DNA of 64,000 nt from Asterias amurensis (Eukaryota > Echinodermata > Asteroidea > Forcipulatida > Asteriidae), in contig NC_092666.1 of the NCBI RefSeq assembly GCF_032118995.1, positions 4,910,501 to 4,974,500 on the forward strand, read 5' to 3'. A program made the translations under genes and the position numbers. Under the pieces are notes generated by a model. It was not told the DNA's origin. It worked only from the letters and a program-made list of their open reading frames with translations, and ran no database searches. This document shows positions 6,944-60,589 of this stretch, piece after piece. Each line of letters begins with the position of its first letter. Position 1 is the stretch's first letter.

Positions 6944-7368
6944 AGCTTTTTTCTGTGCTTAGCAAGTGTTTGTGCTTCCAGGCATAATGAAATTAGGCCT
7001 ACGTTCCAGTCTATTTCCTGGCAGGCAATACGTTCCACTGCTCATATTATGAAAAATGCTGTATAATAACGACCAAATAAATAGAAGGCTGGATTTCTGC
7101 ACAAAAATATTGGAAAAAGTCATACAAAAAATGCTGTATAATAACGACCAAATAAATAGAAGGCTGGATTTCTGCACAAAAATATTGGAAAAAGTCATAC
7201 AAATTGAACTTTGATAGCGCCCTCTATTGACAGGCTAATTTCATTATGATTTAAATTATATCGCCAATTGTTCTTCACCAATGTTCTCCAATAATTTCAC
7301 GAAATCGCCTTAAAAATCACAGATTATTCTTCATCCATCAACCAGTTAATTCTCGCGCGTCCGTGCAG
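6944..7368. repeat. Spacer with a 75-bp tandem duplication (7,052-7,201)
   Basis: A 75-bp block starting AAAATGCTGTATAATAACGA occurs twice here and once in the second duplication copy (around 60,340-60,415). It is therefore a post-duplication gain or loss. Nothing else is recognised before the TATA box. Confidence 0.7.
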
Positions 7369-7376
7369 TATAAAAG
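7369..7376 (+). promoter_or_regulatory. TATA box candidate
   Basis: TATAAAAG sits just after a CpG-containing GCGCGTCCGTGCAG stretch, about 450 bp upstream of the first start codon/splice donor. It is conserved in the second copy at 60,582-60,589. The distance leaves room for a long 5' untranslated exon. Confidence 0.45.
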
Positions 7377-7830
7377 TGAGTAGGACTTTTCTTATTTTGT
7401 TATCTCTAAAGATGGGATATTGGTATTTTTTAAGTATGGGGCTCGTGATCAGTGTGACTGTGATGATCAATCATTGATGGTTTGCTGCGTGCATGGGAAA
7501 GTTTGTTATTTACCAGTTACGATATGGTAGTGTTTTACCGTAGTTACAGAAGTTCCGGAGTACCCAATCATCAAGTGGTTGATTATTAAGGTTACTAGTG
7601 CTGTGTTTCTTCTCTTTGGGCCTAATAATAATCTAGTTGATCTCATTGTTTTGTGTACATGCTGTATTACCTATAAAAAAAATATTAATAATTGACACTA
7701 GGCCTAGGCCTGTTTCGTTGTCTACGGATATGTGATGTGTGCTTTGTTTACCCACGCCTGCTTCTTCTATTCTGTGGAAGAGGTAAAGATATCACCAATC
7801 AGTGGTAAAGCTCGTTCATTTCAACAATGG

Positions 7831-8125
7831 ATGAAGGTAAGTGAAGATTGAACAACTTCTTTCCAATTTTCTCATTTGCTTTCACCTTTTTTGTTTACAG
7901 TACAGTACTCTTGATGTTGGAACTGTAATACTTACCTTCATTGGTGATGATCAGTGTTGTAGCCATGGTGGGCGACGGTGGGCGGGCCTGCCCAGTACTG
8001 ACATGTTCCGCCTGGCACTTCAGCTGAAAAACAGACTGCCAATACCACAACTAGTTCCAATGGTAGGTCTTGTATTGCATAATGGTCATCAGCCAGTGAG
8101 GCAGTTGAACATCTTCTGTGATTAA
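7831..8125 (+). CDS. Small two-exon ORF, unrecognised product
   Basis: A candidate gene start. Two overlapping start codons (7,827 and 7,831) precede the donor G|GTAAGT at 7,836/7,837. A 64-bp intron ends with TTTGTTTACAG at 7,900. Only the second ATG joins in frame to the open exon 7,901-8,062 (54 codons). The first ATG has the better context but would stop after about seven codons. The exon can end at the donor ATG|GTAGGT (8,062) or read on to TAA at 8,123, giving about 76 residues. The peptide contains TFIGDD and a charged GGRRWAGLPS stretch. I do not recognise a family. In the second copy the exon is intact with one C-to-Y change, while the intron differs in length, which supports the intron call. 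Confidence 0.4.
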
Positions 8126-8159
8126 TTTCTGGACAGAAGTTTTATTGGGCTGTTAAAGT

Positions 8160-8560
8160 CACCTGGAAGTGGTATTTTGGGTGTCTGGCGGGCCCCTGGA
8201 TGCAGCAATTTTTTTGTCGGGCGGCTGATACTGGTATTGGGAATAGTGTCATCATTTGTCATTTCAACTTGGTTTACAAGGGGGTCTGATATTTAACGTG
8301 GGGGGGGGGGGTCTGGCAGGCCTAATGCGGCAAAACCTTTGTCTGGTGGCTGATACTGGTATTGGGAATAGTGTCATCATTGGTCATTTCAACTTGGTTT
8401 TAGGTGGTTCCTCAGATCTTTAACCCAGGAGAGGGGGGGGGTGTGTCTGGCGGGCCCAATTCAGCAAATCTCAAGTCTGGTGGCTGTTACTGGTATTAAT
8501 TATAGTGTTATTGGTCCTTTCTCTATCTGGTCATTTCAACTGCGGTTCCTCTGTTGTTTA
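8160..8560 (+). repeat. G-rich minisatellite, short array
   Basis: About three units with poly-G tracts, GTGTCTGGCGGGCC, and GGTCATTTCAACTTGGTTT. The same family forms the 2.5-kb array at 22.5-25.05 kb and an expanded, partly inverted array in the second copy (62,130-62,960). Confidence 0.8.
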
Positions 8561-8859
8561 ACCTAGCTACTAGCATACTTGTTGTTATTAAATTATGGGC
8601 TCTTACGTTTTAAAAGAATACCAGGTCGACGCGTGGGGCCAGGGCCGGAGCTCCAGAAAGGGGGTGTTTTTAGAATTATGTATTTCAAGAGTATGAGTAT
8701 GGATTTCACTGAGTATGGATTGAATTTTTGGTGCATCTTCATAAACCCTTGGAGTATCAAGAAGACGACAGGCCTAACCATGCCGGATTAACATGAGTTG
8801 AGATTTGTGAGTTTGGTGTTATTTACCGAGCTTTGTTTGTTTTGATTGGCCGTTTGCAG

Positions 8860-8957
8860 GGAAGAGGTTGAATCAAGGAAGAGGCTTAGTGAGAACAATG
8901 CAGAGGACTTGAAGCATATGGATAAAAGACTAAGAGACAACCAGGAGCTCCACACAG
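8860..8957 (+). CDS. Charged helical exon (coiled-coil-like), unrecognised
   Basis: The acceptor TTTGCAG|G and donor ACACAG|GT bound a 98-nt exon with one open frame. The frame starts EEVESRKRLSENN and is dense in K, R, E and D, which suggests an extended helix. The exon takes phase 2 in and leaves phase 1 out. This phase matches neither the upstream exon (phase 0 out at 8,062) nor the next visible exon at 9,951 (phase 2 in). Exons may be missing, or the gene may be decayed. The exon sequence is unchanged in the second duplication copy at 63,240-63,337, which points to recent duplication or selection. Confidence 0.45.
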
Positions 8958-9950
8958 GTTATTACATTTGGAGAAATCTTTCCATAAAGCTTTGTCCCTT
9001 TTTATTGAAACTGTACTTAATTTTCGTCCAATACCAATCCATCAAGTAGTTTATTTATTTGTTTATTTATTTATTCACCCAGGCTTTAAAAACTTCAAAA
9101 CACACAGCAACAATAAGTAGAAATGTATAACTTTTGCATTATTAGTAAAATATTTAGAGACATATCAACAAAAAGCAAGCAGAAGCCTATAGGGATTGCC
9201 CAATAGGGAACCAAATCACTATTCAGTTCTTGAATTGGTCTCAACATTTTGACTAGCTTGCTCTAGTCATCGTCAAGAGACTGACTCCGGGGTAGTGCGG
9301 TTAATTATGATCCTATAAAGCTAAAGTAGTTGTACCTGCTAGGGTATATTTACAAAGCAGGACAGTTCTTTTCAGAACAAGTTTCCCCAAAATCTGATAT
9401 TCTACTCTTTGCGGTAGTAAAATAAAGCAAGACAGTTCTCTAAAGAACAAACTCTACCTGGCAAGTAGAAACACACATGGTGTTTGTTACTGCAAACCAA
9501 ATATATATTGATACCTCACCATGCAAAGCCTAAATTCTTTTGTACCCTTTTCACTGATGAAAGAGGTTTCTAAAAAAAGTATTGCCTTGTTAGTGATTTC
9601 CAATCCATGTTTAGTTTCACCTCACATGTAGGTACTTTTTTCCCCAAAAGACTTCGTTGGATTAAAACACAAGTGCTTTATTTGTCTTTAAAAAGACAAA
9701 TTTGTCTTTAAAAAGACAAATAGGTAATTAATATCTGCAAATTATTTATTATGGCCCATCAAAATGAACTAGGCATTTCTGAGCTTTTAAGAAACTGGTG
9801 ATTGTTAAATGTAATACTGTAAAAAATTAACTATGCCTAGTGATCAAATGCACACAAAACATGCAACTACACATGTAGATCATTCAGACTGAATTTCTTC
9901 GTTTAACAGCAGCTGATGTAAATTTGTCCGATATTTGTTGTCTATTGTAG
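8958..9950 (+). other. Intron-like sequence
   Basis: No coding exon recognised. It contains TTTA-type low complexity (about 9,050-9,090) and an 18-bp block with two direct copies of TTTGTCTTTAAAAAGACAAA near 9,680-9,720. It matches the second copy through the end of the window. Confidence 0.5.
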
Positions 9951-12900
9951 GTTGCGTAGAGAAGCCCTACAGAAGTACATTCGGCGAGCAGTAGCGTCTA
10001 GACAAACGGTAAGTACAGTCTTATGATTTTTCTCCTGTAGATGATCAGCGTATATTAATAGAAACATGAGTCTTTAACCAATAGTTCTTTTCCTAACCAA
10101 CACTATTCAAAAAGAGACTCACATGGTGTTATCGCAAAATGTTCTTATAGTTATAATTCCACCATACAAAGTTTCAAATTCTACTAATGGTGGTGGGCAT
10201 CAAATAGGTGGGGGTGGGGTGTGACAAGGGGAGAGGGGCACAATATCAAATGTCCCCCCCTATTTTTTTGACCCCCTTGATCATGAAGCCAAAGTATTGC
10301 ACTGTGTAAGACCAACCCTGTGTCTCGCCATGGGCATTAATCCTGGGGGCTAAGGATGACACAACTTTTTAGAAGGGTGGGGGACACTATATCAAACGTC
10401 CCCTCTCAAAATTGACCAAAGATTGCACCACAGAGCATCTAAAATGCAGAATTTTCCTGTGCCTATAGACGATGTGACCTCTGACATCACACGAAAACCA
10501 TAACATGATTTGCGCCCATACTGCCGGGCAAAACCTTTGTGTTTTGGCAGCCAGCTAGAAAGTGTACGCAATCTTACTGTGACTGCGCAACTCAGGTGCC
10601 CGACGAAACATGACGTATAGAGTGTTTTGTCAACAGAGGGTGTTTTGAATGTAAACATAGGTCACATCGTCTATAAGCGGGCCTGGACCCTATGCTATTT
10701 GGCTTCTCACACGAATGCTCAAACATTATGATTGATGCCATTGACGGGACACAGGGTTTGGTCTTATACGGTGCAATACTTGAGTTTCAAGATAAAGACA
10801 CGTCATTAGATACGGCAAACATTTGAGTTTATGCCCTCCACCCTTCAAAAATGGGGGGGGGGGGGGTGGGGGGGGGGATAGTCCCTTCCACTGTTTCAAG
10901 GGGGAGGTGCAATTTTGTCAACGTTTGAGCATTAGTGTGAGAAGCCAAACAGCATCTAGGATCCAGGCCTGATTAAAGGCAGTGGACACTATTGGTAGTG
11001 ACTCAAAATAATTGTCAGCCTAAAACCTCACTTGGTAACTTGCAATGGGGAGAGGTTGACAGTATCAAACATTGTGAGAAACGGCTCCCTCTGAAGTGTC
11101 GTAGTTCCCGAGAAAGAAGTAATTTTTCATGAAATTCATTTCAAGATCTCAGATTTAGAATGCAAGGTCTCGAAATCAAGCATCTGAAAGCACACTACTC
11201 TGTGTGACAGGTGTTTTTTTGTTTTGTGCATTAATATCTCGCAACGAACGATTGAGCTCAGATTTTCACAGGTTTGTTATTTTAGGCATTTTGAGATACA
11301 CCAAGTGAGAAGACTGGTCTTTGAAAATTACCAATAGTGTCCAGAGTCTTTAGGCAAGCCTGGACTCATGCCGTAAAGATTTCACACTCGCATGCCACTC
11401 TTTGACAGATTTGCCCCCTACAACTTGTGTCATGTAGATCCGTACTTGAAGATGCTGTTAACTCAAAAGGTTACTGCTGCTCACATTTTAAAGGCTTTGC
11501 TCTATTCCATTCTTTTTGCCTCTTGTTGACAGTTGCCCTAAGATTGCACCACAGAGCATCTAGAATGTGAACTGTTCCCAGGCCCCTCAAACGAGCCCGA
11601 CCCACGCCGTAAAGGTTTCACACGAGCATGCTTATAGATCCCCACATGAAGATGATGTTAACCAAAAAGGTTATACAACTGCTGCTCACATTTAAAAGGC
11701 TTTATAAATGTTCTGTTCCATTCGTTTTGCCTATTGGCCTAAGTTTGCACCAGAGAACACCTTGAATGCAAAGTTTTCCCAAGTTTTTTTCCGAAAAAGG
11801 TTTTGCGTTCCGCTTTATAGCATGCTCCATCTTTAATTGGTTTGCCCTACCAACAAGCCCCCACCCCCTTTATAGAATTTCCTGTCTTAATCCACCCTTG
11901 ACGATGCTAGGAATGAACCGCCGTCTGAGCATTATATGTAGAAATAATTTGTATACGCAGCTATAACTGAGTTGGTTTTTAGCTAATAACCAGGATAGCA
12001 ATTAAATGGTGCATCATTTGTCATAGCTCGAAATAGCCATTAAATTCCAAGATCTCAGATGGGGCACATCTTCCCTCAGACTCATAAGATTGCACTAGAG
12101 AGCATAAATGGCCTTAAAATTTTCCTGGGGCCCTTACTCGAGGCCGGACCCCACGCCGTAGATGGTATGACTAACGATGTTCCTCCCCCCATCTTTCAAG
12201 ACAGATTGACGCCGATGCTAATGGTCACTCTAAAGAAATTATAACATAAATGTTTTCTCATTTTCTCAGTTGCACAAAATCCAAGAGAGCAAAAGAGCTG
12301 AGCTGGAGAGTCAAATGAAGGATAACAGGAAGCGGAGGAAGACTGTGTAAGAGACACTGTTTTTTTTCTTATTCAAGATTACATCTCAGCAACACCGTAC
12401 TTAAGGGTTTGGATACCTTTTGTACAACACAAAACTCAATGTCAACAGATATACATTAAACTATCCGGTTTGAAGATAATGGTGGTAGAAGGCTTCTAAA
12501 ATATTACTTGCCTTGCTGAGGTTGTAAGTTTTGAGACATGAGTAAAAAAATATTATGAAAGTAGTTTTCGATTCATGAAACAAAAGTGATCTTAGCATGT
12601 AAAACGTATTTACGCTACTCTCCTGAAAACCTTGCTGTTTGATTTTGCCTTTTGTTTTCTTCGCAAAACTTTAAAACTAATGTTGCTAAAATTGTATAAT
12701 ACATGTACATCATTACAGTGCATAGGGATTTATGTAATGGGCAAAATTGTTATACAAAAGGTACCAAAACCCTTTAAAGATACAACTTTGTACTTGTTTT
12801 TGAGATCGTCATTCCTTTTATCGATTGTCCCTGAATGAGAATGCATTTATTAACTGAACCATTTCTGGGTTTATAATTTGTTTTTAACCTTTATACTGAT

Positions 12901-13268
12901 GTGTTTTAACCACTGTACCCTGTGAAAACAAATATAATATGCAAATCACTCGAGTGGGATTTGAACGCGCGACCTTTGCATTGCTAAAGCAGATGTCCTA
13001 CAACTAGACCACCGAGCTAGCCCGATGGCTAGAGGCAGCTCAAATCCTGGGTTTAAAAAACTGACTGACCCATAACCCTATTAACAATAAATAATTGTAG
13101 TGCCAGTAGTGAAAATTCGTGTTGTTTCTTTCCAAATTGCTTGTATTAGAAATGTAAAGTTATTGTGTAATGTTTATTTTCATCTGCAGCACGCAGCAGC
13201 GCTGGAGTGGGAGTGAAAAGATCACCTTTTGTCACAACAGTGGAGTCAGTGCTACTATACAGAGATGA
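9951..13268 (+). CDS. Three-exon C-terminal part of an unrecognised basic protein
   Basis: Three splice-bounded exons join in one frame: 9,951-10,008 (acceptor ATTGTAG, donor ACG|GTAAGT), 12,270-12,346 (acceptor TTTCTCAG, donor GT|GTAAGAG) and 13,190-13,268 (acceptor CATCTGCAG, stop TGA at 13,266). The frame reads through the KYIRRAVASRQT and LHKIQESKRAELESQ stretches to a KRRK cluster, then a short tail ending SATIQR. Composition suggests a charged helical region with a possible nuclear-localisation-like KRRK patch; this is inference. I cannot name the family. Probably the same gene as the exon at 8,860, though that junction is out of phase. Large introns hold foldback elements, a MITE and a SINE. 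Confidence 0.5.
10464..10675. mobile_element. 212-bp MITE with perfect 17-bp TIRs
   Basis: TATAGACGATGTGACCT at 10,464-10,480 is exactly inverted at 10,659-10,675; the outer TA may be the target duplication. It has no coding content. It sits beside a second inverted-repeat element (10,680-10,969), inside a wider region of inverted repeats. Confidence 0.8.
10680..10969. mobile_element. Foldback element with ~45-bp arms
   Basis: The arm at 10,680-10,726 (including TTGGCTTCTCACACGAATGC) is inverted at 10,923-10,969. The centre holds long G runs. An outer pair, AGACCAACCCTGTGTC near 10,308 and its inverse near 10,748, suggests a larger palindromic structure interrupted by the 10,464 MITE. Confidence 0.65.
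10973..11353 (-). mobile_element. MITE family A copy
   Basis: TTAAAGGCAGTGGACACTAT at the left and TACCAATAGTGTCCAGAGTC at the right. The internal order (ACTCAAAATAATT first, then CAAGTGAGAAGACTGG) is opposite to that of the copy at 6,561. Confidence 0.85.
11354..12269. repeat. Diverged tandem repeats within an intron
   Basis: The phrase AGATTGCACCACAGAGCATC followed by a CCCAGGCCC/ACGCCGTA block recurs at about 10,424, 11,540, 11,735 and 12,085 with heavy divergence. The spacing is irregular (about 200-350 bp among the last three). No coding signal is recognised in it. Confidence 0.5.
12945..13035 (-). mobile_element. tRNA-derived SINE head
   Basis: On the minus strand the sequence has an A-box-like TAGCTCGGTGGTCTAG and a B-box-like GCGTTCAAATCC with tRNA-like spacing, starting GGGCTAGCTCGG. 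The flank toward lower coordinates resembles the flank of the 39.8-kb element, so this is a dispersed SINE rather than a functional tRNA. Confidence 0.6.
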
Positions 13269-13290
13269 GACCTAGACCCTAACCACCAGG

Positions 13291-13653
13291 ATGGAGAAGT
13301 CTCTGGATGGTTGCTACACCAGGATGCAGCGTATGACCCTAAACATCCCCTGGCAAGACCACATGAGAAACTCCAATGGCTGGCCAAAGGCTACAGAGAA
13401 GATTCGTGAACGCCGCCTCAAGCTTGCTTGGCACTGTGTCCGCCACTCAGAGCTTGCCCCTTGCCCAATCATCCTCTGGGAGCCCACCCAAGGCAAGGCT
13501 TCTCGTGGGAGAAGATGACTCTCCTACCTAGACACACTGAAATGAGACATCGGCTTGACCAGCGCTGAAGAACTACGCTCCTTCATGCTGGACCGGAACA
13601 TCTGGAGAAAAATCACTGAGCAGGCTCGAGCCTCTAGATGGCGCTTGACTTGA
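13291..13653 (+). pseudogene. 3' end of a LINE reverse-transcriptase ORF (decayed)
   Basis: The reading frame contains LDGCYTRMQRMTLNIPWQ, then KIRERRLKLAWHCVRH, then LWEPTQGKASRGRR. This series is typical of the C-terminal end of animal LINE endonuclease/reverse-transcriptase proteins. The same frame continues through two stops (13,516-13,518 and 13,546-13,548) to SAEELRSFMLDRNIWR and ends at TGA 13,651. There are no upstream RT motifs, so this is a 5'-truncated, dead insertion. It lies just downstream of the stop of the preceding exon. Confidence 0.85.
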
Positions 13654-13763
13654 TTGATTGGGAGTATGATTCAAACTGTGAGCAGCTCAACAGGCCTCAT
13701 CCAAAACACCTGTCATCATAGTCCATAGTGATGGTACCCAAGCCCATCAAGAGAGCCCCATAG

Positions 13764-14126
13764 TCTGCCGACCAGAACACCAATGGGAATCTTGAGGTTC
13801 AGGTGGTCACCAAGCAAAATCCTAAGGAGAGGTCAGATAAGACTGGTGAGGTCAACCATTTTGAAGTCCAGTCGCTCAGACGGCATCATTTTTGTCACAG
13901 TGATGAATTTGGTAATGCTTCACCAAAGTCAGTCGGTTCAGAGCCTCCATCGCCAACACGATCAACGGAGAAATCTCCAAGAAAAGATGCTGTCATCCCA
14001 TCACCTTGGGGTTCACCACAGAAATCCCAAGGTGATGAGCTCTCTGCAGCGTTTCCTGGTCATCACACCAGAAGCATCAGCCATAAGAAAGTACCGGAAG
14101 AAGGCGTCAATCCCGAAGTTTTTTAA
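13764..14126 (+). CDS. Possible last exon, Ser/Pro-rich tail, unrecognised
   Basis: An acceptor-like CATAG ends at 13,763. The frame then stays open for 120 codons to TAA at 14,124. The product is rich in S, P and K, with PSPTRSTEKSPRKD and WGSPQKS, as in disordered C-terminal tails. A second overlapping frame is also open, so the coding case is weak. If real, it needs an upstream exon ending in phase 0; the LINE fragment has intruded in between. Confidence 0.3.
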   Translation, partial: SADQNTNGNLEVQVVTKQNPKERSDKTGEVNHFEVQSLRRHHFCHSDEFGNASPKSVGSEPPSPTRSTEKSPRKDAVIPSPWGSPQKSQGDELSAAFPGHHTRSISHKKVPEEGVNPEVF

Positions 14127-14144
14127 TTAGGTTTTATTGTTTTG

Positions 14145-16282
14145 TTATTCTTGAGTTTTATACATATTAACTGCAACAATGACGCTACAGTTGTACCAGT
14201 TGCTTTAAAATGTATTAAACCACCTCAGATGTATAATTATTTAACTTGGCTTTTAAGACACTGGACACTATTGGTAATTGTCAAACACTAGTCTTCACAG
14301 TTGGTGTATCTCAACATATGCACAAAATAACAAACCTGAGAAAATTTGAGCTCACAAAGTTTTATACTATCACCCTCTCCCCATTACTCATAATCAACTG
14401 GTATGCAGTGCTGACCCCTAAATGAATTAGCACCGTGGACTTGTTAATATCAAATTATGTGACAGGATGCCATACACAAAGCAGACCCTTTCCGTAAGGG
14501 CATGAATACAACAACAAATTAAAACAATTATATGATGTTATATGGGATAGTAGGGTTTGTATAAAAAGCAAAACTTATAACAAGGAACAAAGTTAACTTA
14601 CTGTTTTAAAGGCACTGTACACATTTGGTAATTACTCAAAATAGGCCTTTCTTAGCATAAAACATTACTTGGTAACGAGCAACGGAAGACTGTTGATAGT
14701 ATAAAACATTGTGAGAAACGACTTCCTATAAAGAGATAATTTCTCACTAAAATAATATATATAAAAATTGGCCAGAAGCACACTATTTTATACAACAAGG
14801 GTGATTTTTTCTTTCATCAGTTTCTTGCAACTTCAATGAACAGTTGAGTCCAAATTTCCACATTCTTGTTTCTTTATGCATATATGTTCGGATACACCGA
14901 GTAAGAATACTGGTCTTTGACAAAAACCAAACGTGTTCAGTCCTTATTGTTTTGTTTTTTAATTAAGATGCGTACTGCCTGTGATAGTATTAACAAACCA
15001 TGCAATGTACTTGTACAGTAGCATTAACATCAGTGCCCAATTTCATATAGCTACTTTTAGCAAGCACAAACCGTAGAGTTATATATAAGAACTAGAGCGC
15101 GCACTGACCTATATACGCGCCCCGGTATGCGAGCAGGCGACCATTTTTTAAGTTGACAACACAGCTATCTCACAGCGTGTGTTTGTGCGGCCATTTTGTA
15201 AGTTGAACAAACAGTATTCTTGAGTTTTATACATATTAACTGCAACAATGACGCTACAGTTGTACCAGTTGCTTTAAAATGTATTAAACCACCTCAGATG
15301 TATAATTATTTAACTTGGCTTTTAAGACACTGGACACTATTGGTAATTGTCAAACACTAGTCTTCACAGTTGGTGTATCTCAACATATGCACAAAATAAC
15401 AAACCTGAGAAAATTTGAGCTCACAAAGTTTTATACTATCACCCTCTCCCCATTACTCATAATCAACTGGTATGCAGTGCTGACCCCTAAATGAATTAGC
15501 ACCGTGGACTTGTTAATATCAAATTATGTGACAGGATGCCATACACAAAGCAGACCCTTTCCGTAAGGGCATGAATACAACAACAAATTAAAACAATTAT
15601 ATGATGTTATATGGGATAGTAGGGTTTGTATAAAAAGCAAAACTTATAACAAGGAACAAAGTTAACTTACTGTTTTAAAGGCACTGTACACATTTGGTAA
15701 TTACTCAAAATAGGCCTTTCTTAGCATAAAACATTACTTGGTAACGAGCAACGGAAGACTGTTGATAGTATAAAACATTGTGAGAAACGACTTCCTATAA
15801 AGAGATAATTTCTCACTAAAATAATATATATAAAAATTGGCCAGAAGCACACTATTTTATACAACAAGGGTGATTTTTTCTTTCATCAGTTTCTTGCAAC
15901 TTCAATGAACAGTTGAGTCCAAATTTCCACATTCTTGTTTCTTTATGCATATATGTTCGGATACACCGAGTAAGAATACTGGTCTTTGACAAAAACCAAA
16001 CGTGTTCAGTCCTTATTGTTTTGTTTTTTAATTAAGATGCGTACTGCCTGTGATAGTATTAACAAACCATGCAATGTACTTGTACAGTAGCATTAACATC
16101 AGTGCCCAATTTCATATAGCTACTTTTAGCAAGCACAAACCGTAGAGTTATATATAAGAACTAGAGCGCGCACTGACCTATATACGCGCCCCGGTATGCG
16201 AGCAGGCGACCATTTTTTAAGTTGACAACACAGCTATCTCACAGCGTGTGTTTGTGCGGCCATTTTGTAAGTTGAACAAACA
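14145..16282 (+). repeat. 1,069-bp tandem duplication containing two MITEs
   Basis: 14,145-15,213 is repeated at 15,214-16,282 with no difference that I noticed. Each copy carries an internally deleted family A MITE (14,253-14,395; 15,322-15,464). Each also carries a fuller, diverged one with GGCACTGTACACATTTGG termini (14,606-14,946; 15,675-16,015). The near-identity suggests a very recent event or an assembly duplication. Confidence 0.9.
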
Positions 16283-16834
16283 GCATCGCGTGAGCGTTCA
16301 ATACAAAAATTCAAACATGTATTTCGTATTCAACGCGCGTGCAGAATGATGCGCTTATCATCTTGCGGTCCCGTGGCGTTTGTGCACGAAGCATCGCTCT
16401 TGTGCCCTCTAGTTCGTATATATAATTCCATGGCACAAACACATTTCTTGTTACCAGACTAAAAAGATACCAGCAAGGAACCATGTCACATGGTCCATCT
16501 TTTGCTTGTTTCCTGCTTAAATTTGCTCAGCAGACAAGGAAATGTTAAGCAAAATTGTCTGTTTAAGCAGCTACATGAAATTTGCCTGCAGTGCGTTATC
16601 AGTATCAGTATTTTTCAGCATTATTGTTTTATTTTTAAGGTTCTGGTTTTTGTTTGTTTTTGCATTTTATTTGTTTCCCGAACTTAACTATAGTTTTACA
16701 ATTGGTGTCTGGACTCAAACTTCTAGAAAGTTATTATTCTATGCTATCTATTCTGGGGGAGGTTTATGAAATGTTATTGCTGTTTCAGATCTGTAGAGTA
16801 TTGAGCTTAAAGCTTTTAGTATCTTATTAAATAA
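16283..16834. other. Nothing recognised
   Basis: T-rich sequence with overlapping short open frames of hydrophobic composition (16,490-16,769). I see no splice borders or family signal. Confidence 0.4.
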
Positions 16835-16972
16835 GTTATCACACAACGCGAGTGGAATACGGAAAAATATAGCGCCTCTGCGTTCCATATCCAAAGAGGC
16901 CGAAGGCCGAGTTGGATATGGGACGCAGACGCGCTATATTTTCCGTATTTCCACGAGCGAGCGTGTGATAAC
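16835..16972. mobile_element. 138-bp hairpin MITE
   Basis: The left arm GTTATCACACAACGCGAGTG runs through GGATATGG-type sequence to a nearly complete inverse ending GAGCGTGTGATAAC. The element is almost entirely palindromic with a short loop, AGAGGCCGAAGGCCGA. It carries no coding content. Confidence 0.8.
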
Positions 16973-17303
16973 GTATTTATCTTTAAGCAAACTTGGCGCG
17001 TGACACACATGACGCATGGTAGTGATATTAGCCGTGCAATATAGGTTTTTATCACCACTCCATTCTGCCAATTTGATTGGAGAATTAGCGCGTACTTGAA
17101 GATAATTTCAGTTGATGTTGTATGCTATGTTTAATTAAAAGTACCACTTGGTGATCTTTAAATGAAAAACCAGAGTAGAACCATAGTTTCATTCTACAAT
17201 CAACCGTTCGTTACATTGTATAAAGTACTAAAATATGTAGTACAAAGCCTTTATATGGAACCAATTGATGGTACTTTTAATAGCGAGTTATTAGGTTGAC
17301 CCT
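16973..17303. other. Nothing recognised
   Basis: A/T-rich spacer between two MITEs with no open frame of note. Confidence 0.4.
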
Positions 17304-17619
17304 GAAGGCACTGGACACTATTGGTAATCACTGTCAGCATAAAGACTGACTTGTTAAAGAGCAACGGAGAGCTGTTGATAGTTTAAAACATTTGAGAAAT
17401 TTTTCCCTTCTGAAGTAATGAGAAAGAAGTAATTTTCCACTAGTTTATGAACAAAAAATTGATTTCGGGACTTACAATTTGTTTTAAGGTCTCAAAATCA
17501 AGCATCTAAAAGCACAAGAGATCGTGTAAACAAGGGTGTTTTTCTTCCATTATGTTACTACTTCGACGACCAATTGAGTTCAAATTTTCACAATAACCAA
17601 AGGTGTTCAGTTTCTTTAA
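17304..17619 (-). mobile_element. MITE family A copy (diverged)
   Basis: Starts GAAGGCACTGGACACTATTG and ends CCAAAGGTGTTCAGTTTCTT. The internal GGTCTCAAAATCAAGCATC stem half is retained; the middle is shortened. Confidence 0.75.
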
Positions 17620-18335
17620 GGGGTCCAATTTACACATCTATTGATATTCACTCTTCACAACAAACAAAACTACTACAACAAAGTTTCACAATTTGTTTTC
17701 ACATTTTGGTGAAAGTTCCACATTTACTTGTTTGTTATTAAATAAAATAAAGTAGGCCCCCATAGCTTATTTTACTCAAACGAGATTTTGCATTTGACAA
17801 CAATGGGTAATTAAAAATGGCATTTGGATAAGAAGTTGGACTTAGAAAGTTTCCCGCTCTTTTTGAGTGTGATGGTTCGACCTGTCCTGGTGTGTCATTT
17901 TGTTATCTAAACTAAATTAAGGAAGCAATGGGTGAGTGTTCTGAGGAATCCATCCCTGACCTGACGCTGGCTTTCCTGTGCAAACGTTGTTTTCATGATC
18001 TCGTTGGATAAAATTACACAATTTATTGTTTTTAGTTATTTATTATACAATACGCATAACTAAAGCTTTAACTATGTGTTGTAGTAAACCATCGGCCTAT
18101 TGAAACTTCTAAATATGTTATATTACTTTTATCATTTACCAATTATTTTATGTTTGTGGAGTTTTATTTAAATAAAGAAACAATAATATTTATACCAGCC
18201 ACAATGTTGTGTATTGCTTGTTTTGTATTAACTCATACATCAGGAGACTTTATAGCTCTGAAAAAGAATCTTGCCTTTAGGAACTTCCTCGGGTAGAAAA
18301 TCGGCCGTGTGACTTTCCTTTGGATCAAGGGGACA
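17620..18335. other. Nothing recognised
   Basis: A/T-rich, with short open frames only. No repeat family that I can identify. Confidence 0.4.
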
Positions 18336-18676
18336 TTAAAGACAGTGGACACTATTGGTAATTACTCAAAATAATTATTAGCATAAAACCTTTCTTGGTG
18401 ACGAGTAATGGGGAGAGGTTGCTGTTATAAAACATTGTGAGAAACGGCTCCCTCTGAAGTGCCACAGTTTTTTAGAAAGAAGTAGTTTTCCACGACTTTG
18501 GAGACCTCAGATTTTAGAACTTGAGGGCTCGAAATCAACCATCCAAACAAGGGTGCTTTTTCCTTTCATTATTATCTCGCAAGTTCGATGACCGATTTAG
18601 CTTAAAATTTCACATTTTAAAAAAATTTTTCACATGTTGAGATACACCAACTGTGAAGGCTAGTATTGACAAAACT
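18336..18676 (-). mobile_element. MITE family A copy, right end degraded
   Basis: Begins TTAAAGACAGTGGACACTAT and keeps the GAGACCTC/GAGGGCTC stem. The right terminus breaks off after GGCTAGTATTGACAAAACTG. Confidence 0.75.
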
Positions 18677-18825
18677 GCCACCGAGGTAATGGTCTAAAAT
18701 AATTCAATTTGATAAAACGAATCACACAGTTTTACCCTTTTTAAAGTATTTATATTCACTTGATAGTATATTGTGTGAATCCATAACAAATTTCATTTAC
18801 TCGAGGAGCATCACACCTACAACAA

Positions 18826-19464
18826 TTATTTTGTGTGAGGCATGCGTTTCGAAAAGATCCTTATCTCGGCGTTTGCGAAACTTCTCATTGATTTAGCTGG
18901 TTTATAGTATTTTTGGACCCTGAACTGGGAAAATGCCTGCGTTTCGAAACGGCGAAGAGAAATGAGCAGCCTTTTGAGCCTGAATGAAAAAAAAGAGCTG
19001 CGTTTCGAAAATACCCTTAGGCATTTCCCCAGGCTCTGAAGCCTAATAAAACCGCCGTTTCGAAAACACCCTGGTATATTCGAAACGGCCGACTGGGAAA
19101 CGCAGGCTTTAAAAGCCTGAACTTTGAAAATGCCCAAGTTTCGAAAATACCTTGGTATTTTCGAAACGTAGGCATTTTTCCAGTTCAGGCTTTCAAAGCC
19201 TATTAATTCCAGTCCGCCGTTTCGCAAATACCCTGGTATTTTCGAAACGGCGGACTGGGAAAAGCAGGCTTTAAAAGCCTGAACTTTGAAAATGTCCAAG
19301 TTTCGAAAATACCTTGGTATTTTCGAAACGTAGGCATTTTCCCAGTTCAGGCTCTGAAAGCCTGTTGTTTCCAGTCCGCCGTTTCGAAAATACCAGGGTC
19401 TTTTCGAAACGCAGGTATTTTTACAGGTCAGGATCCAAAAGTACTTAAAGCCTGCTATATCCAT
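18826..19464. repeat. 162-bp satellite built of palindromes
   Basis: Stems such as TCGAAAATACCTTGGTATTT alternate with GTTTCGAAAATACC and CCAGTCCGCC/GGCGGACTGG arms. The clearest repeat distance is 162 bp (19,131 to 19,293). Because 162 is divisible by 3, a 212-codon minus-strand frame stays open with a 54-residue repeat containing KIPRYFRNL. That frame has no splice or start context, so I treat it as a by-product. Confidence 0.8.
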
Positions 19465-19908
19465 TCGCCGTTTCTAAAACGCCCAGATAATTCGAACCCT
19501 GATGTTGTAGCGCCACCAACTGGCGGTGTATTCCTCGGCTGCTGAAACGGCGGAGATCCTGAAACTGGTCCGTGAACTGGACCACACAGCCGGTGTGTAT
19601 TTTCATAATTGTAAGGGCCTACAATAAGTATTCTGGCAAGAGAAGATCTATTAAGGTATGTTATGGAAAACCAAAGCAAAATTATTTATTTTGGTAGCGT
19701 ACCTTACTTCAGTCATCGGTGTTCAAACAAGAGTACTTCTTTTATTGACTCGAAATTGCCCAACTTCAACTTGCATATTCCTTTGTTAAGTACATTACTT
19801 ACCAATGCATAGTACACAGTACATGTGTACATCATAAGACATGTGCAATATTACCAGATACAGTACTTCTGCAGTATTATCTAACCTGCACCAATAAAAT
19901 GCCTAAAC
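19465..19908. other. Nothing recognised
   Basis: Spacer between the palindromic satellite and a small MITE. No coding signal seen. Confidence 0.4.
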
Positions 19909-25050: not shown

Positions 25051-25296
25051 TTGATTCAGCTCATGTGATGTTGTGTGTCCATGCGCCTCGGCAGACATCC
25101 ATATCTGACTATGTCAAGTTATCCAGTAAATGTTCTTGTACTCAATTATTGGTACCTTGTTCGTTTGACCAAAGTGCTCTGGGCTACTGGATGAGACAAG
25201 GCCAACACAACTTATTGAAAAAGAGTCAAGGAACTGAGCTGTTATGTAGGTTTTTAACAAATACAGATAGAGATGATGAATATTTAGCAGCATCAT
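25051..25296 (+). other. Short unique segment, coding status unclear
   Basis: A frame on the plus strand is open from the minisatellite through this segment (about 80 codons, including LGYWMRQGQHNLLKKSQ), and the minus strand is also open. No start, donor or family similarity is visible. It ends at a MITE. Confidence 0.3.
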
Positions 25297-25652
25297 TTAA
25301 AGACAGTGTACACTATTGGTAGTTGTCAAAGACCAGTCTTCTGTATCTCAACATCTGTATGCATAAAATAACAAAGTTGCGAGATATGAATAAAATAAAA
25401 AACACCCTTGTCACACGAAGTTGTGTGCCTTCAGATGCTTGATTTCCAAACCTCAAATTCTAAACTAAGAGGTCTCGAAATCAAATTCGTGGAAAATAAC
25501 TTCTTTCTCGAAAACTACGTCACTTCAGAGGGAGCCGTTTCTCACAATGTTTTTATACTATCAACCTCTCCCCATTACTCAATACCAAGTGAGGTTTTAT
25601 GCTAATTATTTTGAGTAATTACCAATAGTGTCCAGTGTCCACTGCCTTTAAA
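25297..25652 (+). mobile_element. MITE family A copy at the left edge of the array
   Basis: TTAAAGACAGTGTACACTAT to the right terminus CCACTGCCTTTA. From about 25,384 its sequence is that of the 1,171-bp array unit, so the array boundary lies inside this MITE. A second, half-length copy begins immediately at 25,648. Confidence 0.8.
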
Positions 25653-25718
25653 GGCAGTGGACACTATTGGCAATTACTCAAAATAATTATCAGCAAAAAA
25701 CCTCACTTCGTAACGAGT

Positions 25719-25985
25719 AATGGCCTAGCAGTTAAGAGCGGCAGATTCAAGCTCTGGCATAAGATCAGTAGAGTGTACGTAGGTTTGAGTCCTGGTCATT
25801 ACACATGTTACACTTGTGTTCTTAAGCAAGACATGTAACCATAATTGCTTCATAAAAGTTGGGGAGGTAGTGCTTTCTGCTATTCCAGCCAGGCTTCAGA
25901 TAGATGATGTACCCAAGCCTACATCTGTATGGACTGTAAAAGGGTTAATCCTGTAGAAAAATAGTTGTTTGTTGGCAATAACTTG
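25719..25985 (+). mobile_element. tRNA-derived SINE inside array unit 1
   Basis: A-box-like TGGCCTAGCAGTTAAGAGC and B-box GGTTTGAGTCC (25,782-25,792) are spaced as in tRNA-Ser/Leu-type heads. A body follows, beginning CTTAAGCAAGACATGTAACC and running to AAAAGGGTTAATCCTGTAG. It abuts a truncated half MITE. The same SINE recurs in every unit at +1,171 steps. Confidence 0.7.
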
Positions 25986-26245
25986 AAGTGGCCTTCAGGC
26001 CATGTGTGTCTGGCGACACAAAAAAATGTGTTGGCTGACAAGGCTTGATTGTTATATAATTATTAGTAAGGGTAATTGTTTTCATGTGCTATGTAGGTTT
26101 TTCCATCTTACATCTTATTTATTTCAAGTGGCATTCTTGTAACTAGATGCAATTTTAGACAAAACTCACAAACCATTTATGACTTGTAATTGAAAAACAA
26201 TGAGCAACTCATCCTATCTTTGTTTTCTTTGTGACCACCCAGTAG

Positions 26246-26374
26246 GTTCCTGTAACTATCAACCGATATTTGAGAGATTACCAAAGGGAGGGAGTGAAGT
26301 TCTTGTGCCAGCATTATAAGATGGGCGAGGGTGCTATATTGGGAGATGGCATGGGATTGGGAAAAACAGTTCAG
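26246..26374 (+). CDS. ERCC6L2: ERCC6L2-like SNF2 ATPase exon, motif I (copy 1)
   Basis: The acceptor CACCCAGTAG ends at 26,245 and the donor CAG|GTACGA follows 26,374. The 129-nt exon is phase 0 at both ends and has 43 codons. It begins [20 protein letters not shown] and ends [13 protein letters not shown]. The first part is the Q-motif/YQREG region of SNF2 ATPases; [12 protein letters not shown] is characteristic of ERCC6L2 (Hebo), a nuclear DNA-repair translocase. The second part is the Walker A P-loop GLGKT, which binds ATP phosphate. The residue before MGLGKT is G where the family has D or E. Because the exon is symmetric, any number of copies could be spliced in without shifting the frame. 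No start codon or other helicase motif is near, so this is one exon, not a gene. Confidence 0.85.
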
Positions 26375-27416
26375 GTACGACTAAATACTTGTTATGAGTG
26401 GTAGGGCATCAAGCAGGAATATTATCTGCTTTAAAGACAGTGGACGCTATTGGTAACTGTCAAGGAACAGTCTTCGCACTTGGTGTATCAAAACATATGC
26501 ATAAAAATACAGACATGTGAAAACTAGAGCTTAATTGGTCCTCGAAGTTGCAAGATATGAATAAAATAAAAAACACCCTTGTCACACGAAGTTGTGTGCC
26601 TTCAGATGCTTGATTTCCAAACCTCAAATTCTAAACTAAGAGGTCTCGAAATCAAATTCGTGGAAAATAACTTCTTTCTCGAAAACTACGTCACTTCAGA
26701 GGGAGCCGTTTCTCACAATGTTTTCATACTATCAACCTCTCCCCATTACTCAATACCAAGTGAGGTTTTATGCTAATTATTTTGAGTAATTACCAATAGT
26801 GTCCAGTGTCCACTGCCTGTAAAGGCAGTGGACACTATTGGCAATTACTCAAAATAATTATCAGCAAAAAACCTCACTTCGTAACGAGTAATGGCCTAGC
26901 AGTTAAGAGCGGCAGATTCAAGCTCTGGCATAAGATCAGTAGAGTGTACGTAGGTTTGAGTCCTGGTCATTACACATGTTACACTTGTGTTCTTAAGCAA
27001 GACATGTAACCATAATTGCTTCATAAAAGTTGGGGAGGTAGTGCTTTCTGCTATTCCAGCCAGGCTTCAGATAGATGATGTACCCAAGCCTACATCTGTA
27101 TGGACTGTAAAAGGGTTAATCTTGTAGAAAAATAGTTGTTTGTTGGCAATAACTTGAAGTGGCCTTCAGGCCATGTGTGTCTGGCGACACAAAAAAATGT
27201 GTTGGCTGACAAGGCTTGATTGTTATATAATTATTAGTAAGGGTAATTGTTTTCATGTGCTATGTAGGTTTTTCCATCTTACATCTTATTTATTTCAAGT
27301 GGCATTCTTGTAACTAGATGCAATTTTAGACAAAACTCACAAACCATTTATGACTTGTAATTGAAAAACAATGAGCAACTCATCCTATCTTTGTTTTCTT
27401 TGTGACCACCCAGTAG

Positions 27417-27545
27417 GTTCCTGTAACTATCAACCGATATTTGAGAGATTACCAAAGGGAGGGAGTGAAGTTCTTGTGCCAGCATTATAAGATGGGCGAG
27501 GGTGCTATATTGGGAGATGGCATGGGATTGGGAAAAACAGTTCAG
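27417..27545 (+). CDS. ERCC6L2: ERCC6L2-like motif I exon, copy 2
   Basis: Same exon one period on, with acceptor, donor and open frame intact; I see no base change from copy 1 inside the exon. Confidence 0.85.
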
Positions 27546-28587
27546 GTACGACTAAATACTTGTTATGAGTGGTAGGGCATCAAGCAGGAATATTATCTGC
27601 TTTAAAGACAGTGGACGCTATTGGTAATTGTCAAGGAACAGTCTTCGCACTTGGTGTATCAAAACATATGCATAAAAATACAGACATGTGAAAACTAGAG
27701 CTTAATTGGTCCTCGAAGTTGCAAGATATGAATAAAATAAAAAACACCCTTGTCACACGAAGTTGTGTGCCTTCAGATGCTTGATTTCCAAACCTCAAAT
27801 TCTAAACTAAGAGGTCTCGAAATCAAATTCGTGGAAAATAACTTCTTTCTCGAAAACTACGTCACTTCAGAGGGAGCCGTTTCTCACAATGTTTTCATAC
27901 TATCAACCTCTCCCCATTACTCAATACCAAGTGAGGTTTTATGCTAATTATTTTGAGTAATTACCAATAGTGTCCAGTGTCCACTGCCTTTAAAGGCAGT
28001 GGACACTATTGGCAATTACTCAAAATAATTATCAGCAAAAAACCTCACTTCGTAACGAGTAATGGCCTAGCAGTTAAGAGCGGCAGATTCAAGCTCTGGC
28101 ATAAGATCAGTAGAGTGTACGTAGGTTTGAGTCCTGGTCATTACACATGTTACACTTGTGTTCTTAAGCAAGACATGTAACCATAATTGCTTCATAAAAG
28201 TTGGGGAGGTAGTGCTTTCTGCTATTCCAGCCAGGCTTCAGATAGATGATGTACCCAAGCCTACATCTGTATGGACTGTAAAAGGGTTAATCCTGTAGAA
28301 AAATAGTTGTTTGTTGGCAATAACTTGAAGTGGCCTTCAGGCCATGTGTGTCTGGCGACACAAAAAAATGTGTTGGCTGACAAGGCTTGATTGTTATATA
28401 ATTATTAGTAAGGGTAATTGTTTTCATGTGCTATGTAGGTTTTTCCATCTTACATCTTATTTATTTCAAGTGGCATTCTTGTAACTAGATGCAATTTTAG
28501 ACAAAACTCACAAACCATTTATGACTTGTAATTGAAAAACAATGAGCAACTCATCCTATCTTTGTTTTCTTTGTGACCACCCAGTAG

Positions 28588-28716
28588 GTTCCTGTAACTA
28601 TCAACCGATATTTGAGAGATTACCAAAGGGAGGGAGTGAAGTTCTTGTGCCAGCATTATAAGATGGGCGAGGGTGCTATATTGGGAGATGGCATGGGATT
28701 GGGAAAAACAGTTCAG
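28588..28716 (+). CDS. ERCC6L2: ERCC6L2-like motif I exon, copy 3
   Basis: Intact, with splice sites retained. It sits in an A-type unit. Confidence 0.85.
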
Positions 28717-29758
28717 GTACGACTAAATACTTGTTATGAGTGGTAGGGCATCAAGCAGGAATATTATCTGCTTTAAAGACAGTGGACGCTATTGGTAATT
28801 GTCAAGGAACAGTCTTCGCACTTGGTGTATCAAAACATATGCATAAAAATACAGACATGTGAAAACTAGAGCTTAATTGGTCCTCGAAGTTGCAAGATAT
28901 GAATAAAATAAAAAACACCCTTGTCACACGAAGTTGTGTGCCTTCAGATGCTTGATTTCCAAACCTCAAATTCTAAACTAAGAGGTCTCGAAATCAAATT
29001 CGTGGAAAATAACTTCTTTCTCGAAAACTACGTCACTTCAGAGGGAGCCGTTTCTCACAATGTTTTCATACTATCAACCTCTCCCCATTACTCAATACCA
29101 AGTGAGGTTTTATGCTAATTATTTTGAGTAATTACCAATAGTGTCCAGTGTCCACTGCCTGTAAAGGCAGTGGACACTATTGGCAATTACTCAAAATAAT
29201 TATCAGCAAAAAACCTCACTTCGTAACGAGTAATGGCCTAGCAGTTAAGAGCGGCAGATTCAAGCTCTGGCATAAGATCAGTAGAGTGTACGTAGGTTTG
29301 AGTCCTGGTCATTACACATGTTACACTTGTGTTCTTAAGCAAGACATGTAACCATAATTGCTTCATAAAAGTTGGGGAGGTAGTGCTTTCTGCTATTCCA
29401 GCCAGGCTTCAGATAGATGATGTACCCAAGCCTACATCTGTATGGACTGTAAAAGGGTTAATCTTGTAGAAAAATAGTTGTTTGTTGGCAATAACTTGAA
29501 GTGGCCTTCAGGCCATGTGTGTCTGGCGACACAAAAAAATGTGTTGGCTGACAAGGCTTGATTGTTATATAATTATTAGTAAGGGTAATTGTTTTCATGT
29601 GCTATGTAGGTTTTTCCATCTTACATCTTATTTATTTCAAGTGGCATTCTTGTAACTAGATGCAATTTTAGACAAAACTCACAAACCATTTATGACTTGT
29701 AATTGAAAAACAATGAGCAACTCATCCTATCTTTGTTTTCTTTGTGACCACCCAGTAG

Positions 29759-29887
29759 GTTCCTGTAACTATCAACCGATATTTGAGAGATTACCAAAGG
29801 GAGGGAGTGAAGTTCTTGTGCCAGCATTATAAGATGGGCGAGGGTGCTATATTGGGAGATGGCATGGGATTGGGAAAAACAGTTCAG
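29759..29887 (+). CDS. ERCC6L2: ERCC6L2-like motif I exon, copy 4
   Basis: Intact, with splice sites retained. It sits in a B-type unit. Confidence 0.85.
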
Positions 29888-30929
29888 GTACGACTAAATA
29901 CTTGTTATGAGTGGTAGGGCATCAAGCAGGAATATTATCTGCTTTAAAGACAGTGGACGCTATTGGTAATTGTCAAGGAACAGTCTTCGCACTTGGTGTA
30001 TCAAAACATATGCATAAAAATACAGACATGTGAAAACTAGAGCTTAATTGGTCCTCGAAGTTGCAAGATATGAATAAAATAAAAAACACCCTTGTCACAC
30101 GAAGTTGTGTGCCTTCAGATGCTTGATTTCCAAACCTCAAATTCTAAACTAAGAGGTCTCGAAATCAAATTCGTGGAAAATAACTTCTTTCTCGAAAACT
30201 ACGTCACTTCAGAGGGAGCCGTTTCTCACAATGTTTTCATACTATCAACCTCTCCCCATTACTCAATACCAAGTGAGGTTTTATGCTAATTATTTTGAGT
30301 AATTACCAATAGTGTCCAGTGTCCACTGCCTTTAAAGGCAGTGGACACTATTGGCAATTACTCAAAATAATTATCAGCAAAAAACCTCACTTCGTAACGA
30401 GTAATGGCCTAGCAGTTAAGAGCGGCAGATTCAAGCTCTGGCATAAGATCAGTAGAGTGTACGTAGGTTTGAGTCCTGGTCATTACACATGTTACACTTG
30501 TGTTCTTAAGCAAGACATGTAACCATAATTGCTTCATAAAAGTTGGGGAGGTAGTGCTTTCTGCTATTCCAGCCAGGCTTCAGATAGATGATGTACCCAA
30601 GCCTACATCTGTATGGACTGTAAAAGGGTTAATCCTGTAGAAAAATAGTTGTTTGTTGGCAATAACTTGAAGTGGCCTTCAGGCCATGTGTGTCTGGCGA
30701 CACAAAAAAATGTGTTGGCTGACAAGGCTTGATTGTTATATAATTATTAGTAAGGGTAATTGTTTTCATGTGCTATGTAGGTTTTTCCATCTTACATCTT
30801 ATTTATTTCAAGTGGCATTCTTGTAACTAGATGCAATTTTAGACAAAACTCACAAACCATTTATGACTTGTAATTGAAAAACAATGAGCAACTCATCCTA
30901 TCTTTGTTTTCTTTGTGACCACCCAGTAG

Positions 30930-31058
30930 GTTCCTGTAACTATCAACCGATATTTGAGAGATTACCAAAGGGAGGGAGTGAAGTTCTTGTGCCAGCATTA
31001 TAAGATGGGCGAGGGTGCTATATTGGGAGATGGCATGGGATTGGGAAAAACAGTTCAG
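30930..31058 (+). CDS. ERCC6L2: ERCC6L2-like motif I exon, copy 5
   Basis: Intact, with splice sites retained. It sits in an A-type unit. Confidence 0.85.
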
Positions 31059-32100
31059 GTACGACTAAATACTTGTTATGAGTGGTAGGGCATCAAGCAG
31101 GAATATTATCTGCTTTAAAGACAGTGGACGCTATTGGTAATTGTCAAGGAACAGTCTTCGCACTTGGTGTATCAAAACATATGCATAAAAATACAGACAT
31201 GTGAAAACTAGAGCTTAATTGGTCCTCGAAGTTGCAAGATATGAATAAAATAAAAAACACCCTTGTCACACGAAGTTGTGTGCCTTCAGATGCTTGATTT
31301 CCAAACCTCAAATTCTAAACTAAGAGGTCTCGAAATCAAATTCGTGGAAAATAACTTCTTTCTCGAAAACTACGTCACTTCAGAGGGAGCCGTTTCTCAC
31401 AATGTTTTCATACTATCAACCTCTCCCCATTACTCAATACCAAGTGAGGTTTTATGCTAATTATTTTGAGTAATTACCAATAGTGTCCAGTGTCCACTGC
31501 CTGTAAAGGCAGTGGACACTATTGGCAATTACTCAAAATAATTATCAGCAAAAAACCTCACTTCGTAACGAGTAATGGCCTAGCAGTTAAGAGCGGCAGA
31601 TTCAAGCTCTGGCATAAGATCAGTAGAGTGTACGTAGGTTTGAGTCCTGGTCATTACACATGTTACACTTGTGTTCTTAAGCAAGACATGTAACCATAAT
31701 TGCTTCATAAAAGTTGGGGAGGTAGTGCTTTCTGCTATTCCAGCCAGGCTTCAGATAGATGATGTACCCAAGCCTACATCTGTATGGACTGTAAAAGGGT
31801 TAATCTTGTAGAAAAATAGTTGTTTGTTGGCAATAACTTGAAGTGGCCTTCAGGCCATGTGTGTCTGGCGACACAAAAAAATGTGTTGGCTGACAAGGCT
31901 TGATTGTTATATAATTATTAGTAAGGGTAATTGTTTTCATGTGCTATGTAGGTTTTTCCATCTTACATCTTATTTATTTCAAGTGGCATTCTTGTAACTA
32001 GATGCAATTTTAGACAAAACTCACAAACCATTTATGACTTGTAATTGAAAAACAATGAGCAACTCATCCTATCTTTGTTTTCTTTGTGACCACCCAGTAG

Positions 32101-32229
32101 GTTCCTGTAACTATCAACCGATATTTGAGAGATTACCAAAGGGAGGGAGTGAAGTTCTTGTGCCAGCATTATAAGATGGGCGAGGGTGCTATATTGGGAG
32201 ATGGCATGGGATTGGGAAAAACAGTTCAG
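32101..32229 (+). CDS. ERCC6L2: ERCC6L2-like motif I exon, copy 6 (last)
   Basis: Intact. It is the copy nearest the downstream exon at 33,055, from which it is separated by MITE fragments. If a transcript uses only one copy, this or copy 1 would be the natural choice. Confidence 0.85.
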
Positions 32230-32410
32230 GTACGACTAAATACTTGTTATGAGTGGTAGGGCATCAAGCAGGAATATTATCTGCTTTAAAGACAGTGGAC
32301 GCTATTGGTAATTGTCAAGGAACAGTCTTCGCACTTGGTGTATCAAAACATATGCATAAAAATACAGACATGTGAAAACTAGAGCTTAATTGGTCCTCGA
32401 AGTTGCAAGA

Positions 32411-32840
32411 TATGAATGAAATAAAAAACACCCTTGTCACATGAAGTTGTGTGCTTTCAGATGCTTGATTTTGAGACCTCAAATTCTAAATCTGAGGTCT
32501 TGGAAGTCAAATTCGTGAAAAATACTTCTTTCTCGTAAACTACGTCACTTCAGATGGAGCTGTTTCTTGCAATGTTTTATATTATATAACACCCAAGCTG
32601 ATCCTTGCCATTTGATTGCAGAATTGTCCGACACGTGTTAGCAAATAGTCTGAGGTCTCAAAATCAAATTCATGGAAAACTACTTCTTACTCAAAAACTA
32701 TGTCATTTCAGAGGGAGCTGTTTCTCACAATGTTTCACAACGTTCTTTACTATCGAACTCTCCCCATTACTCGCCACCAAGTAAGGTGTTATGCTAATAA
32801 CTATTTTGAGTCATTACCAATAGTGTCCACTTCCTTTAAT
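32411..32840 (+). mobile_element. MITE family A fragments at the right edge of the array
   Basis: The MITE continues out of the last unit but diverges (TTTTGAGACCTCAAATTC). It is interrupted near 32,585-32,650 by unrelated sequence, then resumes to TAGTGTCCACTTCCTTTAA. The two pieces overlap in content, so this is two truncated copies or one rearranged copy. Confidence 0.75.
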
Positions 32841-33054: not shown

Positions 33055-33136
33055 GTCCTTGCCTTTCTTTGAACCGTGCTTGGAAAGACTGGTACAGGGA
33101 AGACTGCCCAATACGCTTGCCACAGTTTTAAAGAAG
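33055..33136 (+). pseudogene. ERCC6L2: ERCC6L2-like exon following motif I, with a stop codon
   Basis: The acceptor TATCTCCAG ends at 33,054 and a donor G|GTATTG follows 33,136 (82 nt, phase 0 in, phase 1 out). The frame reads VLAFL, TGA (33,070-33,072), then TVLGKTGTGKTAQYACHSFK. In ERCC6L2 proteins the P-loop exon is followed by a stretch of the form V-I-S-F-L-A-A-V-L, which this matches in position and pattern except for the stop. One substitution could have produced the stop. This makes the locus a likely pseudogene or a diverged partial duplicate. The similarity is short, so the assignment is less sure than for the P-loop exon. Confidence 0.6.
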
Positions 33137-54640: not shown

Positions 54641-54641
54641 A

Positions 54642-60581: not shown

Positions 60582-60589
60582 TATAAAAG
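60582..60589 (+). promoter_or_regulatory. TATA box candidate, second copy
   Basis: TATAAAAG in the same context as 7,369. Confidence 0.45.

Follow-up and report, generated by a model that had tools for sequence, protein, structure and literature searches.

Six tandem copies of an SNF2 motif I exon in Asterias amurensis very probably lie within a non-processed pseudogene fragment

How did six identical copies of one helicase exon come to lie head to tail in a genome, and do they encode anything? The question is raised by a 64,000-nt window of contig C19 of the Asterias amurensis assembly (C19:4910501-4974500), in which positions 25374-32399 form a head-to-tail array of six units, each exactly 1,171 bp long. 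Comparison of the window with itself at an offset of 1,171 bp gave 96–100% identity in each 50-bp step across 25400-31299 and background level beyond. Every unit carries the same 129-bp exon without any difference among the six copies; each copy comprises 43 codons with no stop, is bounded by splice-like borders in phase 0 at both ends, and matches the Pfam domain SNF2-rel_dom with 33.2 bits (cut-off 24.9). The initial annotation had described this period and copy number, the open and symmetric exon and the coordinates of its junctions correctly, and had assigned the exon to motif I of an ERCC6L2-type SNF2 ATPase, an assignment borne out by the Pfam match and by the agreement of 39 of 43 residues with the exon of an ERCC6L2-type gene on contig C13. 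It had also raised the prospect of an ATPase with serial motif I copies, or of a choice among equivalent exons, while allowing that the array may be silent. That caveat proved sound: we consider it very probable that the six units were amplified in tandem within a non-processed pseudogene fragment, and the array is most likely silent genomic debris.

An intact-looking gene of the same type exists elsewhere. Within the genome searched (491,506,623 bases in 23 contigs), the minus strand of C13 at ~62.7-77.3 kb contains 14 exons that can be joined at AG/GT borders in one frame with no stop, giving a product of 689 residues (the exon borders of this model are approximate) that matches SNF2-rel_dom (E = 4e-52) and Helicase_C (E = 5.2e-24); at 80.55-80.68 kb there is an additional, weak match to N-terminal sequence (34% identity). 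The motif I exon is present once in this gene and has other ERCC6L2-type exons on both sides, and the motif III exon has a single match genome-wide, uniqueness having been checked for this exon and for the two shared with the window. An SNF2 ATPase core in one frame, from motif I through the C-terminal helicase half, is thus present in the C13 gene and not at the array locus. A complete ERCC6L2 gene elsewhere in the genome was one half of the condition under which the initial annotation would have given up its reading, a lack of junction reads being the other. In view of the C13 gene we also rejected a gene loss in which the window would be the sole ERCC6L2 locus. The subfamily name is provisional, because the best PDB sequence match of the 43-residue exon is CHD1L (E = 4.1e-06); we take the exon to be of ERCC6L2 type from its 77% match to a segment of human ERCC6L2. 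A literature search combining ERCC6L2 with echinoderm found no paper.

The window holds only a broken fragment of such a gene. Alignment with the C13 gene region yielded two pieces besides dispersed repeats: gene-strand positions 9843-10025, with the motif I exon, match window positions 26211-26393 over 183 bp at 91%, and 10750-11066, with the next exon, match 32930-33266 over ~340 bp at 76%. Intron flanks align together with both exons, indicating that intron sequence was retained and that the fragment is not a retrocopy. The initial annotation had named position 33055 as the splice target that follows the array; the coordinate is right, but the exon is broken: it reads VLAFL*TVLGK... and contains an in-frame stop and a frameshift that had been overlooked. 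The same exon is frameshifted in all 16 copies that were read, out of 21 non-gene copies located. Nine of the 16 share the two deletions seen in the window, and the other seven carry a 2-bp insertion instead, six of them on C19 at 6.9-7.5 Mb and one at C13:15.2 Mb. A duplicated pseudogene is recognized by a parent gene elsewhere and by disabling lesions in the copy, and both are found here.

The motif I exon itself, although open, has diverged from its counterpart in the C13 gene at 8 of 129 nt. Four of these differences are synonymous and four change amino acids (A3V, Y21C, K26M and D35G), D35G removing the acidic residue that precedes MGLGKT in the P-loop. The array and each of the 16 single copies located elsewhere share the tandem acceptor CAGTAG in front of this exon, as against CTTGTAG in the C13 gene. 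The first AG of a tandem acceptor is usually preferred when it belongs to a CAG, and splicing at the upstream CAG would make each copy begin with an in-frame TAG. Searches of the window by pattern and by tblastn revealed no other SNF2 parts above chance: the best other tblastn match (26% identity, E = 0.059, on the opposite strand) was taken as chance, and an N-terminal ERCC6L2 stretch gave chance-level matches only. Genome-wide there are 94 matches to PF00176, and the 23 on C19 all fall at profile positions 1-38, which correspond to the motif I exon.

Genome-wide, DNA of the motif I exon was found at 29 places: C19 bears two six-copy arrays, which account for 12 of them, another 16 are single copies on C19, C11 and C13, and the last is in the gene. 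The second six-copy array and the single copies point to a fragment that has been duplicated many times, and the locus is one of its copies. Genome-wide place counts are lower bounds, and for two of the window probes a part of the first-look candidates was scored (40 of 68 for probe 49352-49696 and 40 of 870 for probe 4800-5300). The former has at least 41 places, 13 of them full-length at 99-100%, and the latter at least 48, 27 of them at 95% or more; probe 32930-33270 has at least 22, gene included. At C19 4.88-5.20 Mb, probe 4800-5300 recurs eight times head to tail with a spacing of ~35-53 kb; seven of these eight units carry the motif I exon, and two of the seven carry it as a six-copy array. 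Pieces of the duplicated unit are also present on C11, C13 and C17. Part of the unit, at 9829-19671, is collinear with C1:17408408-17418211 (rows of at least 100 bp, outside the array and inside 9.6-54.3 kb), and a 180-codon frame that is open on C1 is frameshifted in the window. Probe 13700-14145, taken from this part, has at least 26 places, 25 at 98-100% and one, the C1 region itself, at 82%. Containing pieces that resemble at least two unlinked regions, the unit is thus mosaic. The C13 gene (62.7-80.7 kb) lies less than 81 kb from its scaffold start, and the C17 pieces of the unit lie 6-15 kb from theirs; from these positions, chromosome-end exchange may have spread the pieces.

A larger repeat is superimposed on these units. 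The 20-kb region bearing the array recurs 131,393 bp downstream at equal length, with 4 differences in 20,000 positions, and two 10-kb samples from the units that follow each have a partner at roughly this spacing with 99.98% identity, versus 99.79-99.80% between neighbours (pieces longer than 300 bp, gaps left out). Because the paired samples exceed the identity of neighbours, a block of ~131 kb was, to judge from these samples, probably duplicated last, or repeated by the assembly.

Is the exon under selection? Relative to the array, the 16 single copies show seven distinct nucleotide changes and none is synonymous; one is G39R in the GKT loop (locus L026). This pattern fits neutral drift as far as such few changes can tell. 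Purifying selection on the exon was rejected on the same count, which is unlike constraint, by a test that is weak, since with only seven changes all seven were non-synonymous in 12% of neutral simulation runs. Two observations weigh against a silent pseudogene. First, neither the array nor any of the 16 single copies has lost the open frame or the splice-like borders; we give the open frame little weight, because it stays open in ~65% of substitution-only neutral simulations with eight changes. Second, the ratio of four non-synonymous to four synonymous differences between gene and array is somewhat low for neutrality (P ~0.15 for four or fewer given no stop), as is expected if part of the divergence arose on the constrained gene branch. 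We infer that the array copies are untranslated and that their number, six, reflects copy-number drift without a selected function; the array probably does nothing.

How the exon was amplified can be read from the repeats around it. Two miniature inverted-repeat transposable elements (MITEs) of ~390 bp, in the same orientation, flank the motif I exon and differ from each other by several gaps and many bases. The MITE between exon copies 1 and 2 equals the right flanking MITE up to position 26562, except at 26457, and from position 26553 onward it equals the left one, with departures at 26725 and 26819; each of these three sites is one at which the units differ by a single nucleotide. The other four internal MITEs differ from this first hybrid by such inter-unit differences only. 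Unequal exchange between the flanking MITEs would be expected to leave a hybrid repeat at every internal junction and the parental repeats at the outer ends, as found here. The unduplicated state, with one exon between the same flanks, is found at four C19 loci (L015-L018, compared in pieces of at least 150 bp without strong overlap), and the unit at L015 shows the left and right MITE types. MITEs of this family, with inverted ends and TTAA-like borders, number at least ten copies or pieces in the window, several of which have the ends AAAGGCAGTGGACAC and GTGTCCACTGCCTTT beside such borders.

The differences among the units also record their order. Units 3 and 5 share one sequence and units 2, 4 and 6 another, with two sites distinguishing the groups; unit 1 departs from unit 3 at three other sites. 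The order of the units is therefore (AB)x3. Nine loci (L012-L020) have the A state at both sites, six of them securely and three (L012-L014) with a flank mismatch at one site; seven further loci are untypable. From these comparisons the B states look derived. The A state in copies elsewhere, together with the alternation of A and B, indicates that a stage of two units preceded that of six.

These observations outline a course of events. A stretch like two exons and the adjoining intron of the C13 ERCC6L2-type gene lies in the mosaic duplicated unit; lesions break the second exon in each of the 16 copies read, and the first is flanked by two MITEs of the same orientation. Unequal exchange between these MITEs generated one duplication with a hybrid MITE at its junction, after which one unit diverged to give an AB pair and the pair expanded to (AB)x3, the step from two to six units presumably proceeding through further unequal exchange. 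The 20-kb array region is present a second time ~131 kb downstream. Such a course provides a clear mechanism for a striking array: in a segmental duplication, a lone exon can be amplified in tandem where short direct MITEs provide the seed.

The locus resembles several known systems and departs from each. Like non-processed pseudogene fragments in segmental duplications, it has intron sequence, part of a gene, shared frame lesions and an intact-looking parent, but here a single exon has gone on to reach six copies in two of the seven units that carry it at C19 4.88-5.20 Mb. Direct MITEs flanking the unit and hybrid junctions are shared with non-allelic homologous recombination between direct transposons, whereas here the MITEs are short and divergent, and the shared switch tract spans 10 bp, extending to 18 bp should the difference at 25381 be younger. 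The head-to-tail units every 35-53 kb, with the ~131-kb repeat above them, resemble macrosatellite-like or higher-order tandem arrays as a general class; here one probe counts eight units in the cluster, and further copies are dispersed over C11, C13 and C17. A symmetric exon repeated in tandem with its intron sequence is also a feature of tandem exon duplication with mutually exclusive splicing (PMC9741552; Dscam, PMC1397879), but here no intact host gene surrounds the exons, the copies are identical and the next exon is broken.

Among the alternatives, the one that survives best, although itself unlikely, is an assembly artefact, either as the source of the six copies or as that of the second six-copy array 131 kb away; it would be compatible with a pseudogene fragment. 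The identity of units 3 and 5 and of units 2, 4 and 6 would suit an artefact, as would the near-identity and equal length of the second array region and the pairing of its two 10-kb neighbours. However, the assembly report (PMC10625585) describes HiFi libraries of ~15 kb assembled with hifiasm, and such libraries exceed the 7-kb array; moreover, the alternation of A and B and the hybrid MITEs are traces of real unequal exchange, and L015 shows both MITE types. The copy number or the 131-kb repeat could be wrong in the assembly, the 131-kb repeat being less secure than the array.

We regard a non-coding RNA product of the array or unit as quite improbable, and likewise a new chimeric protein into which the exon was recruited. 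The many similar copies of the duplicated unit could be read in favour of this, but the other gene-like piece in the unit is the frameshifted copy of the open C1 frame, and Pfam scans in six frames (X at stops) over 9.6-24.6 and 32.4-47.4 kb gave no match at cut-off, without a positive control. Sub-threshold matches to ocr and VIT_2 in these scans were taken as chance. It is very improbable that the unit is transcribed and its symmetric exons spliced serially, with either a poly-P-loop peptide as the product or an RNA, linear or circular, that interferes with the C13 ERCC6L2-type gene or its transcript, and with a copy number that varies among animals.

Just as remote is a functional SNF2 ATPase into which the array would be spliced, either to repeat its nucleotide-binding loops or to offer mutually exclusive equivalent exons. 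A 129-bp exon that starts and ends in phase 0, with an open frame in every copy, would permit it, but we rejected the multi-P-loop ATPase because our searches of the locus revealed nothing else of it and the exon that follows is broken. The C19 PF00176 matches, the D35G change and the CAGTAG acceptor speak against it as well, and exon choice, for which likewise no ATPase to splice into was found, would change nothing among six identical copies. Automatic C19 gene models could report a helicase with repeated motif I, which calls for caution in annotation. The features of the window that bear on the pseudogene fragment and its amplification are collected in Table 1.

Table 1 Coordinates of the array, its flanking repeats and the surrounding duplicated unit in the window
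Feature	Position	Strand	Basis
Tandem array, six 1,171-bp units, A and B types alternating	25374..32399	+	Self-comparison of units
Motif I exon, copy 1 (43 codons)	26246..26374	+	Unit alignment, Pfam, translation
Motif I exon, copy 2	27417..27545	+	Unit alignment
Motif I exon, copy 3	28588..28716	+	Unit alignment
Motif I exon, copy 4	29759..29887	+	Unit alignment
Motif I exon, copy 5	30930..31058	+	Unit alignment
Motif I exon, copy 6	32101..32229	+	Unit alignment
Broken next ERCC6L2-type exon; contains an in-frame TGA and, compared with the C13 gene, lacks 1 bp at each of two places	33055..33136	+	Translation, alignment
Left flanking MITE (MITE_L), left recombination partner; lacks 33 bp present in MITE_R	25296..25652	+	Alignment, sequence
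First of five hybrid MITEs, left part MITE_R-like and right part MITE_L-like; switch in the 10-bp tract 26553-26562	26430..26823	+	Alignment
Right flanking MITE (MITE_R), right recombination partner; 3′ end not aligned	32285..32585	+	Alignment
Further MITE copies	6558-6946, 20222-20607, 37797-38191, 59842-60231, others		Window self-comparison
Beginning of one duplicated unit, found again at 54296-64000 with 92-98% identity in the main pieces	71..9601	+	Window self-comparison
Start of the following unit, running past the window end	54296..64000	+	Window self-comparison, genome probe
Decayed, interrupted, collinear copy of part of an unrelated C1 region, within the duplicated unit	9829..19671	+	Alignment; probe 13700-14145

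Several other tandem repeats lie in the window. Directly after the decayed C1-like frame, positions 14146-16283 hold an exact (100%) tandem duplication of 1,069 bp, which is very young or a feature of the assembly. Near the start of both duplicated units there are 194-bp tandem repeats (2711-4354 and 56503-57619) that differ in extent. Positions 43125-45877 comprise about four tandem units of 654 bp, ~92-96% alike, three of which have a similar open frame of 92 codons on the minus strand, and 50947-53731 contains blocks of a 29-bp minisatellite (GTGCCTGACTACGAGCCACATCCCAGAGG) within a larger repeated pattern.

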